Origin: Streptomyces mirabilis
GTDB taxonomy: Bacteria; Actinomycetota; Actinomycetes; Streptomycetales; Streptomycetaceae
DNA length: 64,000 bases
Direction: 5' to 3'
NCBI RefSeq assembly: GCF_039503195.1
Contig: NZ_JBCJKP010000001.1
Coordinates: forward strand, 806,001-870,000
Positions 2,594 through 63,470 of this stretch are shown here, in pieces. A program made the translations under genes and the position numbers. The number at the start of each line of letters is the position of its first letter. The stretch's first letter is position 1. Under the pieces are notes generated by a model. That model made no database searches and was not told where the DNA came from. It saw only the letters and a list, made by a program, of their open reading frames with translations.

Positions 2594-5488
2594 GTGGCGC
2601 CGGATCCGGTGCGGTTCGCGGTACTCGGCCCGGTTCGGGTCTGGCGGGCGGGGACGGAGCTGCACCTCGGACGTCCACAGGAAAGGGCTTTGCTGGCACT
2701 GCTGTTGGTACGGGCAGGTCAGCCGGTCTCCGTGAGCGAGGTCGTCGGCGCCCTGTGGGGCGGCCGTCCGCCGGACACCGCGGTCAATGTGGTCCACCGG
2801 CATGTAGGGGCACTGCGCCGCCTGTTGGAGCCCGGCCTTCCCACCCGTGCGACGGGCCAGTGGCTGCTCCGGGACACGGGCGGATACCGCCTGGTGGCCG
2901 ACAGCGACTCTCTGGACCTGTTGCGCTTCCGTGCGCTGCGGGTCGAGGCCCGGCGGGCCGCCTCGGACGGGGCACCCGAACGGGCCGTGGATCTCCTCAC
3001 CGAGGCATTGTCGCTGTGGCAGGGGCCGACGGCCCACGGGATCCCCGTGGAGGCGCGCGCACACCCGGCGTTCGTCTCGCTGGAGGACGAGCGCCTCGCG
3101 ACCGTGAAGGAGGCCGCCGATGTCGCGCTGCGTGCGGACGTGCCGGGTGTGGTCCTCCCCCGGCTCCGGGAGGCCGCTGCCGACAGCCCGTTGGACGAAC
3201 CGCTGATGGCCAGGCTGATGCTCGCCCTTTCGGCCACCGGTCGACGGCCCGAGGCGCTCAGCACATACGTCACCGTGTCGAACCGTCTCGCCGACGAGTT
3301 GGGCATCGATCCTGGACCGGAGCTGCGCGACGCCCACCAGGCGGTGCTGCGCGACACGGCATCCATGGCGGCCGGGCCCGCGGCCGGCGACTCCGAGGCG
3401 CGCACCGCCCAGGGTCCAGCGGCCTCGGACCTCGTCGGTCCGCGAGCGGCCTCCCTGCCCGTGCCCGCGCAACTGCCGCTCGACCTACCCACGTTCACCG
3501 GTCGGCGGGCCGAACTGACCGAGGTCCTCGCACCGCGGTCGAGCGAGGGGCGGTCCGCCGAAACGGTGGTGATCAGTGCCATCGGCGGAATGGCCGGAAT
3601 CGGAAAGACCACGCTCGCCGTGCACTGGGCCCATCGGGTCGCGGACCGCTATCCCGACGGGCAGCTCTACGTCAATCTGCGGGGGTTCGACCCGTCGGGG
3701 GCCGTCATGCGTCCCGACGAAGCGGTCCGCGGTTTTCTGGACGCGCTGGGGGTACCGCCGGACCGCGTCCCGTACGGTCTGGACGCCCAGGCCGCGCTCT
3801 TCCGCAGCATGCTGGCCGGACGCCGGTTCCTCGTCCTGCTGGACAACGCGCGGGATTCCGATCACGTGCGGCCGCTGCTGCCCGGCACGCCCGGCTGCCT
3901 CACGATCGTCACCAGCCGCGACCAGCTCTCCGGTCTGGTGGCCGCTCATGGGGCCCACTCCCTCACCCTGCGTCCGCTCGGCACCGACGAGGGACGGGAA
4001 CTCCTCATCCGCCGCCTGGGGGCCGAGCGGGTGTCCGCCGAGCGGGAGGCGGCGGCCGAGATCACGGCACTGTGCGCCGGTCTGCCGCTGGCCCTGGCCT
4101 GTGTCGCCGCCCGCGCGGCCACCCACCCGCACTTCTCGCTGTCGGCCGTCGCCGCCGAGCTGCGCGAGGCCCATGGCAGCCTCGACGCGTTCATCGAGGC
4201 CGACACGTCGGCCGATGTCGGCGCGGTCTTCTCCTGGTCCTCCCGCGCCCTCTCCCCCGCCGCAGCCCGCCTCTTCCGCCTGCTCGGACTGCATCCCGGA
4301 CCTGATTTCACCGCGCCGGCCGCGGCCGCCCTGGCCGGGCTCGCGGTGCGGGAGGCGCGGCTGTTGCTGACCGAGCTCTCCCGCGTGCATCTCATCAACG
4401 AGCACGCCCCCGGCCGGTACGCCTTCCACGACCTGCTCCGCGCCTACGCCGCCGAACTGGCGCACACCCAGCACGGCGAGGCCGGGTGTCGGGCGGCCGT
4501 GAACCAGCTGTTCGAGCACTATCTGTACACGGCGCACGCCGCCGGTCGGCTGATCGCACCGTACGTGGACACCATGCCGCTCCCGCCTCTCCCCGAGGGG
4601 ACCCTCCCCGAACCCCTCGCCGACGACGAGTCGGCCCTGGCTTGGCTCGCAGCCGAGTACGCGGTGCTGCTCGCCGTCATCGACGTGGCCACCAACTCGG
4701 GTTCGGACCGCCTTGTCTGCCTGCTCGTCTCGTCCTTGGAGCGCTTCTTCGACCGGCAGGGGCACTGGCACGACTGGGCGGCCGTCCAACGGACCGCACT
4801 CGAGGCCGCACTGCGGTTGTCCGACCCCGTCGTGGAGGCTCACGGCCTGCTCGGACTGGCCCGGGTGGCGGGCCGACTGGGCCTGCGCGACGAAGCCGGT
4901 GCCCACCTCGACCGTGTCCTGGGACTCTTCACCGAACTCGGAGACGACGTCGGACGGGCCTACGTCCATCTGAGCCTCGGCTGGGAGGCCGAGCAGCACG
5001 GTGACCTACCCGGCGCCCTCCGGCACGACCAACTGGCTCTGGATCTCTTCCGAGCCACCGGCCGGCAGGCCGCGCAGGCGACCGCCCTCAACGCGGTCGG
5101 CTGGGACCACGCGACGCTCGGGGATCACCAACAGGCCCTCGACCACTGCCTCGAGGCCTTGACCATTCAGAGGGATCTCGGAGACCACATCGGCCAGGCC
5201 GCCACCTGGGACAGCATCGCCTACGCCCACCACAACCTCGGCGACCACCCGCAGGCCCTCACCAGTTACCGCAACGCTCTCACCATCTTCCGGGACCTGG
5301 GCGTGCCGGCCGAGGAGGCCGGAACCCTCGTCCGTATCGGTGACACACACCGTGCGACAGGCGACCACGAGGCCGCCCGCGCCGCCTGGCGCAGCGCCCT
5401 CACCCTCTTCACCGAACTCGCCCACCCCGACGCCGAGCGCGTCCGTGTGCGCCTCGAGGAACGGGGCGAACCGCTGGGTGACGCGTGA
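2594..5488 (+). CDS. SARP-family transcriptional regulator with NB-ARC and TPR domains (AfsR-like)
   Basis: A 964-residue regulator. Residues about 1-95 form the OmpR-like winged helix of SARPs (VRFAVLGPVRVWR, then PQERALLALLL and VVHRHVGALRRLL). Residues about 105-260 are the bacterial transcriptional activator domain, ending in LADELGIDPGPELRDAHQAVL. An NB-ARC ATPase follows with Walker A GMAGIGKTT near residue 333 and Walker B FLVLLDNARD near 413. TPR-like helices fill the C-terminal 250 residues. The GTG at 2594 is preferred because AGGGG lies six bases upstream; the in-frame GTG at 2558 is an alternative. It is probably a pathway-level activator of secondary metabolism or another regulon. 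No biosynthetic cluster adjoins it, so its target is unknown. Confidence 0.92.
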   Translation: MAPDPVRFAVLGPVRVWRAGTELHLGRPQERALLALLLVRAGQPVSVSEVVGALWGGRPPDTAVNVVHRHVGALRRLLEPGLPTRATGQWLLRDTGGYRLVADSDSLDLLRFRALRVEARRAASDGAPERAVDLLTEALSLWQGPTAHGIPVEARAHPAFVSLEDERLATVKEAADVALRADVPGVVLPRLREAAADSPLDEPLMARLMLALSATGRRPEALSTYVTVSNRLADELGIDPGPELRDAHQAVLRDTASMAAGPAAGDSEARTAQGPAASDLVGPRAASLPVPAQLPLDLPTFTGRRAELTEVLAPRSSEGRSAETVVISAIGGMAGIGKTTLAVHWAHRVADRYPDGQLYVNLRGFDPSGAVMRPDEAVRGFLDALGVPPDRVPYGLDAQAALFRSMLAGRRFLVLLDNARDSDHVRPLLPGTPGCLTIVTSRDQLSGLVAAHGAHSLTLRPLGTDEGRELLIRRLGAERVSAEREAAAEITALCAGLPLALACVAARAATHPHFSLSAVAAELREAHGSLDAFIEADTSADVGAVFSWSSRALSPAAARLFRLLGLHPGPDFTAPAAAALAGLAVREARLLLTELSRVHLINEHAPGRYAFHDLLRAYAAELAHTQHGEAGCRAAVNQLFEHYLYTAHAAGRLIAPYVDTMPLPPLPEGTLPEPLADDESALAWLAAEYAVLLAVIDVATNSGSDRLVCLLVSSLERFFDRQGHWHDWAAVQRTALEAALRLSDPVVEAHGLLGLARVAGRLGLRDEAGAHLDRVLGLFTELGDDVGRAYVHLSLGWEAEQHGDLPGALRHDQLALDLFRATGRQAAQATALNAVGWDHATLGDHQQALDHCLEALTIQRDLGDHIGQAATWDSIAYAHHNLGDHPQALTSYRNALTIFRDLGVPAEEAGTLVRIGDTHRATGDHEAARAAWRSALTLFTELAHPDAERVRVRLEERGEPLGDA

Positions 5489-28999: not shown

Positions 29000-29055
29000 C
29001 AGCCGTCAGCCGTCAGCCGTCAGCCGTCAGCCGTCAGCCGTCAGCCGTCAGCCAT
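29000..29055. repeat. Heptanucleotide tandem repeat (CAGCCGT)
   Basis: Seven perfect copies of CAGCCGT run from 29000 to 29048, followed by one variant CAGCCAT. It lies in the space between the DoxX relic and the converging LysR gene. A short variable-number repeat of this kind usually arises by slippage. Confidence 0.95.
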
Positions 29056-59297: not shown

Positions 59298-60629
59298 TCA
59301 GTCCTGCCGCTGGTAGGGAAGCTCTTCGCGTACGTTTCCGGAGTGGTCCCGGGCGACCAGGACGGCCGTGACGGGGCCGCGTTCCGGCAGGTCGGTGAGG
59401 TCGGGCCCCGCGATGAGGAACGTCCCTCCGGTGATGCGTGCCGCCAGGTCGGGCATGCCGTCGCGGCGCAGCACGACCGAGGCGATGTGGGCGTCTTCCA
59501 CCAGGCCCACAACCGCGATGGTCCCACTGGCGCCGTCCGCGAAGTCGTAGTACATCCGGGTGGCCGCGATGTTCCTGCCGACCACGGCGAAGTCCCGAAC
59601 CGGGCCCTGTTGAGGAGTGAAGTCGAACACGAACGGGTCCTCGGCACTCGGTCGGTCACCGGTGGTGTGCCAGACGAGCAGTTTGCCGTAGCGGCCGAGC
59701 CGGACTCGTTCGCGCGGTGTGAGATCGGCGTGAGCACCGGGTCGCCACTGCTCCGGATCGACGATCGGAGGTGCGTCGGCCGCCGCGAGAACCGCGCTCA
59801 GATCCTCGGTGGCGAGCGCGGGGTCCTCGACGGCCGACGCGGGCCGGTCCACGACGGCGGTCGCGCGCGCCGGCAGGGCCGCGACGGGCACGATCTCGCC
59901 CTTGGGGCTGCCGTTGGTCCGCAGCACGAGGCCGGTGGCGTCGACGAGGAACGCGTTGGGAGCCACGAACACACCGTCGGCGACCACCGTCCATCCCAGC
60001 GGGCGCCGGTCCGCGGGCCGTTCCACGACCAGGCTGCCGACCTCGGGTGCGGCAACGCCCGCGATGGTGCCGAACTCGGTGTGGAACGTCACCGACGCTC
60101 CTTCACCGGCCGACGCGCCGACGGCTGGCCGGGACAACGTGACCCGCTTCGGGGTGAGTTCCGCGAACACCACTCCGTCCGGCGAGCCGAATGCGATCGC
60201 CCTGATGCCGTTGCGGCCCGCGGTGAACAACGGCTGCCAGTCGGCCGGATCGGGATGCGCGCGCGTCGCGGCCGCGGCGCAGCGGCGTACGTCCGCCGTG
60301 GAGGCCCACCCGGTCCGCAGACGGTAGAAGTCCTCCACCTGACGAGTGCCGGAGCGTGGTTGGTCACCGGACGCCCCGGCATGCGCGGCGAGGTGCTGCC
60401 GCAGGCGCGGCCAACTCGGGAATCCATGCAGGCGGGCGATCACCAACTGCGCGGTGTCGAGGTTGAATTCGGCCAGTGGATCCCGACTCTCGGGCGCGTG
60501 CCGCGCGACGAGCGCCAAGGCGGTGGGCTGCTGGGAGCGCACGGCCCGCCGCAAGTCCTTCGCCCGCTTCCTGAGCTGTTCCAGACTGGCGCGCTCGGGC
60601 AGGGGCACGGGCGTTGGTGTGGTCGGCAC
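59298..60629 (-). CDS. Large hypothetical protein with N-terminal ankyrin-family leader
   Basis: A 443-residue protein with AAGGAGG five bases before the GTG. LPERASLEQLRKRAKDLRRAVRSQQPTALALVARHAPESRD...TAQLVIARLHGFPSWPRLRQHLAAH is the leader often found before ankyrin-type repeats in actinobacterial proteins. The remainder (IRAIAFGSPDGVVFAELTPKRVTLSRP; VVADGVFVAPNAFLVDATGLVLRTNGSPKGEIVPV; RMYYDFADGASGTIAVVGLVEDAHIASVVLRRDG) looks beta-rich and is not a family I recognise. Not secreted. Function unknown. Confidence 0.8.
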   Translation of the reverse strand: MPTTPTPVPLPERASLEQLRKRAKDLRRAVRSQQPTALALVARHAPESRDPLAEFNLDTAQLVIARLHGFPSWPRLRQHLAAHAGASGDQPRSGTRQVEDFYRLRTGWASTADVRRCAAAATRAHPDPADWQPLFTAGRNGIRAIAFGSPDGVVFAELTPKRVTLSRPAVGASAGEGASVTFHTEFGTIAGVAAPEVGSLVVERPADRRPLGWTVVADGVFVAPNAFLVDATGLVLRTNGSPKGEIVPVAALPARATAVVDRPASAVEDPALATEDLSAVLAAADAPPIVDPEQWRPGAHADLTPRERVRLGRYGKLLVWHTTGDRPSAEDPFVFDFTPQQGPVRDFAVVGRNIAATRMYYDFADGASGTIAVVGLVEDAHIASVVLRRDGMPDLAARITGGTFLIAGPDLTDLPERGPVTAVLVARDHSGNVREELPYQRQD

Positions 60630-60839
60630 GGAGCCTCCTTCGGTGAACCGGTGGTCCGCCGAACCGGCCGAAGGGACGGTAGGCCGTCATGACGCCCTCG
60701 TGTACACCAGGTGGGCTCTGCCCTTCCCGCGGACCCGGAGGCGCCCCGCGCGCCCGTTCGACCACTCTACTGCGTCCCTTGTTCCGTCCGTCGACGATGC
60801 CACCGTCGAGGTCGCCGCCGAGGTCGATAGGGTGCGGGC

Positions 60840-61620
60840 GTGCGCGCACCCGAAGAGCTGAACGAGGTGGACTGGGCGGCCCTTGAGCATGCCTATGGGC
60901 CGGCCGGCGACGTTCCGGAGATGATCCGCGTCCTGTACGCGGAAGAGTCCCCGGAGACGGAGCGCGGCGAGAGCGTCGGTGAGGAGCTGATCAACAACCT
61001 CAACCATCAGGGGTCGTTGTATCCGGCGACGGTGGAAGCGGTACCGTTCCTGGCCCATCTGGCGCTGCACGTGACCTGGCATCGAGAAGCTGTCCTGGAC
61101 GATCCGTGAACTCGCCGGACACATCCGGTCGACATCGTTCCTGCCGCCGCCGGTGCTCGCGGACCACGCCGCCGCCTTCGACGAGACCCTGCGCGGCCTG
61201 CTGCGTACGCCGTCCCCGCCCGGCATCCTCCCTGCCGTCGGGCGGCTGGGCCCGCTCGCTGCGCCACTCGCGCCGGAGGTCGTCACGTTGCTCAACGACC
61301 CACGGGAGTACGGCCGTTCGCAGGCCGCCGACGCCTACTGGCGCATCACCGGCAACCCGCGGCCCGTGCTCCCCCTCCTCCTCACACGGGCCGCACCCAC
61401 CACCACCTACGCCTCGAACGACACCGCCTGGTACGACCGCCGTGATGCCCTGCGCGTCCTTGCCGGCATGCGGACAGCCGGCGCCCTCGCGACCACCCCG
61501 CCGGAGCTGCGGCCCCTGCTGGAACTCTGTGCCACCTCTCCGCGTCGCGTCACGTGGAAGGACGACGACGAGCTGCGCCGCCTCGCCCTCACCCTCCTCG
61601 ACGAGCCGATGCCATCCTGA
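60840..61620 (+). pseudogene. HEAT-repeat protein gene disrupted by an inverted 89-bp insertion
   Basis: GTG at 60840 opens LNEVDWAALEHAYGPAGDVPEMIRVLYAEES...LINNLNHQGSLYPATVEAVPFLAHLALHVTWHREAV, the usual N-terminus of a HEAT-repeat protein, up to about 61095. Bases 61096-61184 are an exact inverted copy of 61758-61846 in the methyltransferase gene. After it the HEAT protein resumes in another frame with ETLRGLLRTPSPPGILPAVGRLGPLAAPLAPEVVTLLNDPREYGRSQAADAYWRITGNPRPVLPLLL to a stop at 61620. The first part stops at LDDP inside the insert. The middle is missing. Confidence 0.85.
61096..61184 (+). repeat. 89-bp inverted repeat, copy 1 (inside the HEAT gene)
   Basis: Identical over all 89 bases to the reverse complement of 61758-61846. 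It begins CTGGACGATCCGTG and ends CCTTCGACG. The flanks differ completely on both sides. Confidence 0.97.
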
Positions 61621-61656
61621 AGCAACCCACAACCCACCACCGCGGCCCGCCTGCTT

Positions 61657-62476
61657 TCACGCCCGTGCCGGCTTGCGGGCCAGTTCGTAGGCGAAGCCGA
61701 CCGTCTCGGTGAGGCGGTCGTCGGCCGTGTGGCGGCCGAGTTCGGCGGTGAGGTCGGCGTCGAAGGCGGCGGCGTGGTCCGCGAGCACCGGCGGCGGCAG
61801 GAACGATGTCGACCGGATGTGTCCGGCGAGTTCACGGATCGTCCAGTGGTGCTCGACCGAGAACTCGTGGCGTCCGGCGGGCTCGAACCCTGCGCGGGAC
61901 ACCACGTCGTGGTCAGGGTCCCGCTGCCTCGGCCGGTCCCAGCCGGGCGGATGGCGTCCGGCCGCGCCGAGGACGTTCCGCCCTGTGCGCGGCACGCCGG
62001 CGAGCGCCCGCTGCCAGTCCCGGGAACCCGCCCAGGGCGAGGCCGACCAGCACAGTGCGAGGCAGCCACCGGGCCTGAGCCAGGTGTGGGCGAGTCCGGC
62101 GACCGCGGCGCGGCGGAGCCGGTGGAAGGCATTGCCGATGACGATCGACTCGAAGCTGTCCGGCCCGGCGGGCAGATCCTCGGCGCCGACGGTGATCGCG
62201 CGAATGTGTGTCGCGCCCACGGCGATCGCCTTGGCGCGGACCACTTCGGTCATGTCGGGCTCGGCGTCCACGCACCACACCTCCGCGGGAGCCGCGCAGC
62301 GGGAAGGCGAGTTGGCCGGTGCCGCAGGCCAGGTCGAGCAGCCGCCCACGCCCCGAGGGGGCTGCCCGGCGTACGAGATCGGCGATCATCGCGTCGGGGT
62401 AGGGAAGCCGGAACCGGTCGTAGTAGTGGGCCGTACCGCGGTACAGATCGGGCTCGAATCTCACGTCACCTGCCAT
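61657..62476 (-). pseudogene. Class I SAM methyltransferase, frameshifted
   Basis: ATG at 62476 opens MAGDVRFEPDLYRGTAHYYDRFRLPYPDAMIADLVRRAAPSGRGRLLDLACGTGQLAFPLR, with the SAM motif LDLACGTGQ. A one-base shift near 62298 moves the rest into another frame: AAPAEVWCVDAEPDMTEVVRAKAIAVGATHIRAITVGAEDLPAGPDSFESIVIGNAFHRL...WTIRELAGHIRSTSFLPPPVLADHAAAFDADLTAELGRHTADDRLTETVGFAYELARKPARA, ending at 61657. Otherwise complete (about 272 residues). It is the donor of the 89-bp segment found in the HEAT gene. Sequencing error is possible. Confidence 0.8.
61758..61846 (-). repeat. 89-bp inverted repeat, copy 2 (in the methyltransferase gene, donor)
   Basis: In this copy the sequence encodes WTIRELAGHIRSTSFLPPPVLADHAAAFD in the methyltransferase frame, a normal part of that family, so this is the original and 61096-61184 the copy. 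Confidence 0.95.
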
Positions 62477-62487
62477 GCGAGCACCCG

Positions 62488-63345
62488 TCAGGTAGTGGCC
62501 ACCAACAGATCTTCTCCGCTCGACGGGCGAAGGTCGTCGGTCCGATCGGCGAAGTAGCGTTCGGCGAGGACGGTTCCCGACACGTGGTGGACGTCCTTGA
62601 AGCCGGCGTCGCGGGCCAGCGCCAGCATCTCCTGCGGGGCGTAGAAGCTGATGAACGGCGTTCCGGCCGCCTGCGCCCGTGGCTTGGTCGCCTCGAGCGC
62701 GGGGCGGTCGGCGTCATCGACGAGTTCGGCCGGCAGCATGAAGGTCACGGCGAGCGTCGAGCCGGGGGCGAGCAGGGCGAGTCGCCGCAGGGTCGCCGCG
62801 GTGGCGTCTTTGGTGAGGTACATGGTGACGCCGGTGCAGGCGACGACCGTCGGCCGGCCGGGATCGAAGCCGGCGTCGGACAGTTGCTCCCACCAGTCCG
62901 CGCCCGCCTCGAAGTCGACCGGCACGAGTCGCAGCCAGTCGGGGATCCCGTAGCCGAGTTCGATCAGGCGTCGGCGCTTCCAGGCCTGGGTGCCCGGCTG
63001 GTCGATCTCGAACACCCTCAGGCGGGCGGCGATCTCGGGCCTGCGCTGGGCGAAGGTGTCCAGACCGGCGCCCAGCACGACGTACTGGGCGACGCCGTGG
63101 CCGGCCCGCTCGGCCACCAGGTCCTCGATGAACCGGGCTCGGGCCACGATGGCCGCCCGGAACCCGCTGGTGCCCCGCGGATCCATGTCCGGGCGGCGCT
63201 GCCATCCCTCGTCAGGTGCCGCCAGTCGCAGCCCGATCTCGTCCTCGATCACGTGGGGCGGCGAGTCGACCCGCACGTGCATCGCCCGCCAGAGGGCGAC
63301 GCGCACCGCGGTGCTGTCCGGCACCTCGCTCTGCTCGTCCGCCAC
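62488..63345 (-). CDS. Class I SAM-dependent methyltransferase (TIGR00027/PF04072 type)
   Basis: A 285-residue protein. STAVRVALWRAMHVRVDSPPHVIEDEIGLRLA, FIEDLVAERAGHGVAQYVVLGAGLDTFAQRRPEIAARLRVFEIDQPGTQAWKRRRL and CTGVTMYLTKDATAATLRRLA are the signature blocks of the leucine-carboxyl-methyltransferase-like group common in Streptomyces and mycobacteria; GAGLDTF is the SAM loop. GTG at 63345 has GGAGAGG upstream. The frameshifted methyltransferase starts 12 bp after it, so the two form an operon. Substrate unknown. Confidence 0.9.
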   Translation of the reverse strand: MADEQSEVPDSTAVRVALWRAMHVRVDSPPHVIEDEIGLRLAAPDEGWQRRPDMDPRGTSGFRAAIVARARFIEDLVAERAGHGVAQYVVLGAGLDTFAQRRPEIAARLRVFEIDQPGTQAWKRRRLIELGYGIPDWLRLVPVDFEAGADWWEQLSDAGFDPGRPTVVACTGVTMYLTKDATAATLRRLALLAPGSTLAVTFMLPAELVDDADRPALEATKPRAQAAGTPFISFYAPQEMLALARDAGFKDVHHVSGTVLAERYFADRTDDLRPSSGEDLLVATT

Positions 63346-63470
63346 GATGCCCCTCTCCTTGCGGTCAGTCTCCGAGTCGGCCGTGGACGACCGCGACGTG
63401 GGTTCCCGGCGCACCGGGCGACAGCGTCGCGATCAGTCGGGGCCACGACCATCCCACACGCCGGGGCGCC

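Follow-up and report, generated by a model that had tools for sequence, protein, structure and literature searches.

Related systems and the present locus

The closest described scars come from Streptomyces itself. Repair of I-SceI breaks in S. ambofaciens leaves scars of NHEJ type with deletions of 191–23,591 bp, with microhomology of 1–6 nt in 50% of the scars, and two clones are described with insertions of 42 and 83 bp that came from near the break; only one clone with such a nearby insertion derived from a kuA mutant (PMC5869714). In animals and plants, Pol theta is described as copying within a stem-loop from two 3′-terminal pairs, which leaves inverted repeats; Drosophila favours 1–3 bp of pairing and a 6-nt loop, and the inverted insertions of mammalian cells measure 3–30 bp (PMC11292364). 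Nascent-strand switching at quasipalindromes has been described in E. coli, where it perfects an imperfect palindrome that is already there (PMC7202029), and for complex events in humans MMBIR has been put forward as a model (PMC2621351).

The scar reported here lies in the window, that is, the whole 64-kb stretch of DNA that was analysed (G000:C1:806001-870000, from a genome of 11.14 Mb in two contigs, which its nearest named relatives place in Streptomyces). It shares with the S. ambofaciens scars the genus, a kilobase-scale deletion, microhomology and a nearby insert, but those were induced and lay in the core region, whereas this one is natural, inherited and situated in a chromosome arm (PMC5869714). 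The snap-back form of synthesis-dependent microhomology-mediated end joining (SD-MMEJ) by Pol theta is matched in the inverted copy from behind one end, in the 2-bp priming and in the second microhomology used for joining; the differences are the bacterial host and an 82-nt tract copied over a loop of ~590 nt, both far longer (PMC11292364). With the E. coli switch it has in common the local inverted copying that a template-switching strand performs, but here the ancestor offered only 5 + 2 bp, and the event also removed 1.4 kb (PMC7202029). FoSTeS/MMBIR likewise joins a deletion to a templated insert with microhomology at the joints, although it was described for human copy-number changes, which are usually far larger. 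A search of the literature by titles and abstract openings, which is weak evidence of absence, found no natural bacterial case of this exact form.

The inverted pair and the ancestral gene

A letter-by-letter check shows that the segment 61095-61183 (+) is the reverse complement of 61758-61846 at 89 of 89 bases, with a spacer of 574 nt between the arms. The initial annotation, made from the window alone, had placed the second arm correctly, the first arm one base off (61096-61184) and the intervening distance at 570 bp. The pair is the sole inverted repeat of at least 36 bp reported in the window by a scan with 16-base seeds, and the window has no other exact one that measures 30 bp or more within 10 kb; the computed expectation of an exact 89-mer match by chance is negligible. 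Elsewhere in the window, at ~29000-29053, a short tandem array with a 7-bp period matches itself exactly over 47 bp when shifted by 7, over 40 bp when shifted by 14 and over 33 bp when shifted by 21. The features of the locus, and two further inverted pairs from the same genome, are collected in Table 1.

Table 1. Features of the scar and its surroundings (window coordinates), and inverted pairs found elsewhere in the genome.
Feature	Coordinates	Strand	Remarks
HEAT-repeat gene, 5′ remnant	60840..61099	+	Codons 1 to ~86 of 710
Left junction microhomology, CTGGA	61095..61099	+	5 bp exact, common to HEAT gene and donor
Inverted templated insertion	61100..61181	+	82 nt, in place of 1,434 bp of the HEAT gene
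Right junction microhomology, CG	61182..61183	+	2 bp exact; CGACG vs CGTCG = 4/5
HEAT-repeat gene, 3′ remnant	61182..61620	+	145 codons, ETLRG (61183) to stop
SAM-dependent methyltransferase gene (Methyltransf_25/11)	61657..62476	-	Convergent with HEAT gene, frameshifted
Donor segment	61758..61846	-	Retained within the adjacent methyltransferase gene
Pair A	G000:C1 10850525-10850569 / 10850853-10850897 (L138:2778-3150)		45-bp arms, 98%, 283 nt apart
Pair B	G000:C1 10861956-10862756 (L138:14209-15009)		48 bp, 98%, 705 nt apart, right arm

The ancestral state is preserved in S. olivochromogenes DSM 40451 (L038), in which an intact HEAT-repeat gene of 710 aa, with HEAT_2 repeats, occupies L038 1306-3438. 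The window aligns with it at ~93% identity on both flanks (59546-61099 with L038 1-1565, and 61179-62468 with L038 2997-4301), and by the exact junctions it has lost L038 1566-2999, corresponding to residues ~87-565 and to two thirds of the gene. The protein is continuous in 13 of 13 full-length aligned proteins (L038 and P0001-P0012, the chimeric P0013 being left out), and the protein database held, among 42 hits, 11 proteins of 709–710 aa with 88–96% identity to the L038 protein. The frame of the 5′ remnant stops inside the insert (ORF 60840-61109, 89 aa), and the 3′ remnant can be read from a GTG at 61153, also within the insert, as an ORF of 155 aa. Since the first 85 residues of the 5′ remnant match intact P0009 at 85/85 (P0005 at 84/85), and the last 145 residues of the 3′ remnant match intact P0005, from Streptomyces sp. 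AK02-04a, at 144/145, the gene was intact until recently in the lineage of the window. Thus, the initial reading of a broken HEAT-repeat gene whose middle is lost, by a recent event, agrees with the comparison with L038 and with the near identity of the remnants to the closest intact proteins. The gene is dead as a result of the event.

The donor is present, and the sense copy absent, in the DNA of all three related loci: L038, S. diastatochromogenes ATCC 12309 (L039) and genome G394 (L049). That relatives might natively carry the segment within the HEAT gene is contradicted by its absence from the L038 DNA and from the 12 further full-length proteins. A search of the genus with window 60660-61700 (E ≤ 1e-20) gave matches in 3 of 392 genomes, the window's own included; G032 matched upstream of the gene only, and G394 only in the 3′ end of the gene and the donor. 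Among the same 392 genomes, a search with the HEAT protein found nine with distant relatives only (42–44% identity), and the species-genome collection, scanned with the 155-aa 3′ ORF, gave two loci.

We consider it almost certain that the deletion and the inverted nearby copy are the scar of one mutational event. Transposition was rejected, there being neither terminal repeats nor a target-site duplication and the insert sitting at a deletion; the initial annotation had likewise seen no insertion sequence, and the insert is indeed flanked by a deletion, not a duplication, and has its source in part of a methyltransferase gene. The feature looks like an ordinary, though unusually readable, repair mistake, not like a mobile element or a working device.

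Junctions

Both joints carry microhomology, at 61095-61099 and 61182-61183; the initial annotation had proposed to look for it at 61090-61100 and 61180-61190, and its description of an inverted templated copy from nearby combined with a deletion, as the footprint of repair or template switching, is upheld. At the left, the base that follows CTGGA is C in the window and in the donor and G in L038; Glu is kept at this point in 14 of 14 aligned proteins, with G or A, not C, as the base. At the right, the base preceding CG is A in the window and in the donor; in the ancestor it is T, given that Val, Leu or Ile stands at this point in 13 of 13 full-length proteins. Therefore, both microhomology bounds are exact, the relatives encoding Glu on the left (not C) and Val, Leu or Ile on the right (T, not A). 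In 200,000 draws of random L038 breakpoints, a shared stretch of 5 bp or longer turned up in 1.2% and one of 2 bp or longer in 22%; by these rates, the right microhomology is unremarkable alone and only the left exceeds chance.

Direction and age of the copy

Copying in the reverse direction, from the HEAT gene to the methyltransferase gene, was rejected, as the segment is in the methyltransferase gene of L038, L039 and L049 and the HEAT copy is in none of the three. Over its 89 bases, the donor differs from the window's at 2 positions in L038, 1 in L039 and 7 in L049. Position 25 of the arm is the informative one, with A in both window arms and in the L039 donor and G in L038 and L049; most simply, this base changed on the common branch of the window and L039, and the copying came later. 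The window and L039 are 97.1% identical, a distance of 2.9%. The probability of zero differences in 89 bp would be 0.41 at 1% divergence of the copies and 0.08 at 2.9%. The donor segment is a collinear part of the methyltransferase gene, but that gene is not the normal one that the initial annotation had supposed: a net loss of 2 nt near 62287/62288 shifts its frame in the window. It is open in L038 and L039, and in G394 the same gene has an in-frame stop.

A second carrier is known at the protein level. P0047 (259 aa) can be aligned across both junctions, in a single frame, to the translation of window 61034-61300, and 88 of the 89 residues agree. It comes from a contig of 10,540,314 bp (the window's has 10,967,747 bp), and further frame changes on both sides show that it represents a different assembly of a decaying copy. 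P0043 is the window's own 155-aa ORF and stands for nine member sequences, which may mean more carriers.

Mechanism of formation

We propose, with a probability of about 0.5, that the scar was made by synthesis-dependent microhomology-mediated (snap-back) end joining of a double-strand break. The break would have occurred in the HEAT gene, and 5′ resection would have exposed the lower strand as single-stranded DNA to the right of it. The right-hand 3′ end, at L038 position 3000, would then fold onto its own strand at 3589-3590, priming on the 2 bp of CG, and would copy the 82 nt lying ~0.59 kb behind it, as far as L038 3677, before being released. The new 3′ end, now the complement of CTGGA, would pair with the left end, and the two would be joined, the likely joiner being the Ku/LigD machinery that the genome encodes. 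The geometry fits this pathway because the side and the orientation of the donor are those of a segment copied “behind” the adjacent 3′ end; the donor (L038 3589-3677) lies outside the deletion, in the retained flank to the right of the breakpoint at L038 3000. A mirror route, with priming from the left end, would depend either on a fork or on the very strand that is lost to resection.

Profile searches of the genome gave seven Ku domains (six over the cut-off), five ATP-dependent ligase domains (all over the cut-off) and two LigD polymerase domains, one of which adjoins a Ku gene at 6.83 Mb. By these matches, the host encodes the bacterial NHEJ set of Ku, ATP-dependent ligase and LigD polymerase domain, which may have acted at the scar. 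Extra Ku-domain genes, some of them short or interrupted, lie towards the chromosome ends (G000:C1 4043, 183436, 9710843 and 10888590).

Against snap-back priming, it must be said that about one random junction in five has 2 bp by chance alone. Short fills are the usual role given to the LigD polymerase, and the portions of the literature covered gave no bacterial polymerase shown to do such snap-back copying. By analogy, a bacterial enzyme would have carried out Pol theta-like copying over a ~590-nt loop; such a loop, and an 82-nt tract, are far above the norm given for Pol theta (PMC11292364).

A close rival of snap-back copying is template switching at a replication fork, either FoSTeS/MMBIR-like or as a long-range quasipalindrome switch, in which a stalled nascent strand would move to a template on the opposite strand nearby, copy 82 nt and go back to its first template 1.4 kb away. 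It predicts two microhomology-bounded switches and an inverted copy equally well, it has the E. coli switching and the MMBIR model as precedents, and a second local inverted copy in the genome, described below, came without a large deletion, which a fork switch permits. The E. coli reporters, however, rely on an existing quasipalindrome, of 18 bp (PMC7202029), whereas here the sites had no more than 5 and 2 bp in common before the event, the switching strand would have to jump 0.6–2.1 kb, and the 1.4-kb deletion has to be produced too. The published Streptomyces scars of this type follow induced breaks (PMC5869714). A single event does not discriminate between fork switching and the repair of a break; on balance, we regard the fork route as possible but rather unlikely. 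In its strict E. coli form, the switch was rejected, the L038 junctions sharing 5 + 2 bp with the donor in place of a prior imperfect inverted repeat.

Streptomyces hyphae are multigenomic, and a free fragment of 82–89 bp from a sister chromosome might have been ligated into the break by NHEJ, with no templated synthesis. The retained donor is compatible with a sister-derived fragment, and repair in S. ambofaciens is described as having taken up a 30-bp piece from a remote locus and inserts of up to 18.8 kb (PMC5869714), so that capture may occur there. Yet such capture does not need microhomology, and the left junction has 5 bp of it, a value reached by chance in 1.2% of draws; nor would it be expected to prefer a donor ~0.6 kb from the break. 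We therefore find capture improbable.

The perfect identity of the arms might instead suggest a functional inverted repeat that is maintained, as an invertible switch, a hairpin or a conversion pair. Identity is, however, what a recent copy would show (P = 0.41 at 1% divergence), both arms share the derived A at position 25 with L039 and not with L038 or L049, and the HEAT and methyltransferase genes are both disrupted in the window, all of which makes such maintenance very unlikely. Gene conversion, which the initial annotation had offered as an alternative, is not needed, as the derived base shared with L039 fits recent copying; the inversion that it had envisaged between the arms finds the window and P0047 both in the ancestral orientation. 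Conversion and an invertible switch were rejected on these grounds. So was a local hairpin, since a single arm has no unusual fold (z = 0.71), and the analysis gave no evidence of a function for the hairpin between the arms that had also been suggested. Least credible of all is an assembly artefact, a chimeric read or contig that flipped and duplicated the segment, although it had been named as what would undo the finding: P0047, from a different contig, reads across both junctions, the flanking DNA otherwise runs collinear with that of L039, and artefacts do not typically remove 1.4 kb and leave exact microhomology where the ends meet.

Repeated decay of the locus

The locus is a fast-decaying stretch of chromosome arm, in which the HEAT gene has been broken independently elsewhere. 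In L039 (L039:3006), a simple deletion removes the equivalent of window 60850-61238, and its junction, read by eye, shares ~1 bp. The L039 remnant matches intact P0003 at 125/126 and the window's remnant at 120/126, and the window's matches P0005 at 125/126; the two lesions look independent because the remnants resemble different intact proteins. G394 (L049:8335) retains only the 3′ end of the gene, from 61490. By eye, P0013 is chimeric from about residue 380 on, and P0049 has an internal deletion that joins residues near 78 to the 3′ part. L038 has deletions of its own relative to the window and L039 (62469-63017 and 63138-63210); in the alignment of L038:4299-4530 with window 62469-63446, these fall in an LCM-type methyltransferase gene whose frame is open in the window (62488-63414, -). 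Such decay agrees with published accounts of the chromosome arms as variable (PMC5869714).

Other local inverted copies in the genome

A scan for sister scars covered 1,664,000 bases of the 11.14 Mb and listed exact inverted repeats that measure 30 bp or more within 10 kb: 13 rows in 0-800 kb, 1 in the window, 0 in 5.0-5.4 Mb and 9 in 10.57-10.97 Mb, many of the rows being pieces of longer imperfect repeats. Isolated short inverted repeats are thus found in both arms, and none that is exact in the 400-kb core sample; in the scan for imperfect repeats, a single pair, at 91%, appears in the core. The two pairs that were followed both come from the right arm (Table 1).

Pair A lies inside a transposase gene with rve domains, and its left-hand arm, the donor, is in the 3′ part of that gene and has a counterpart in related copies. 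All 17 matches that span the site, in four genomes (G010, G011, G019 and G024), are 36–49 bp shorter, and in all four matches that were aligned, the gap falls at the right-hand arm; the insertion is of ~41 bp, with approximate breakpoints, the relatives being 68–79% identical. Local inverted copying has therefore happened at least twice in this genome. Pair A came without a large deletion and does not favour either break repair or fork switching. For Pair B, no relative was found by which to polarise the repeat.

Implications

The scar is of a known kind, and what is new is a well-polarised example that is natural and present in two assemblies. Because an intact relative, the donor and a further carrier have been found, each breakpoint can be placed to the single base, and the case connects the scars of laboratory-induced breaks in Streptomyces with a natural mutation. 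It also supplies a signature that can be searched for, an isolated exact inverted repeat that is absent from relatives, and a first search of part of one genome has already given Pair A.

Beyond this, the locus suggests that bacterial end joining may have a snap-back branch, which can be tested. It is tempting to suppose, though we would put it somewhat short of an even chance, that Streptomyces, and perhaps other bacteria with Ku and LigD, possess a true branch of end joining that works by snap-back synthesis, a counterpart of the inverted templated insertions of Pol theta. If so, broken ends would copy tens of bases from hundreds of bases behind them, and perfect short inverted repeats would be left through the chromosome arms.
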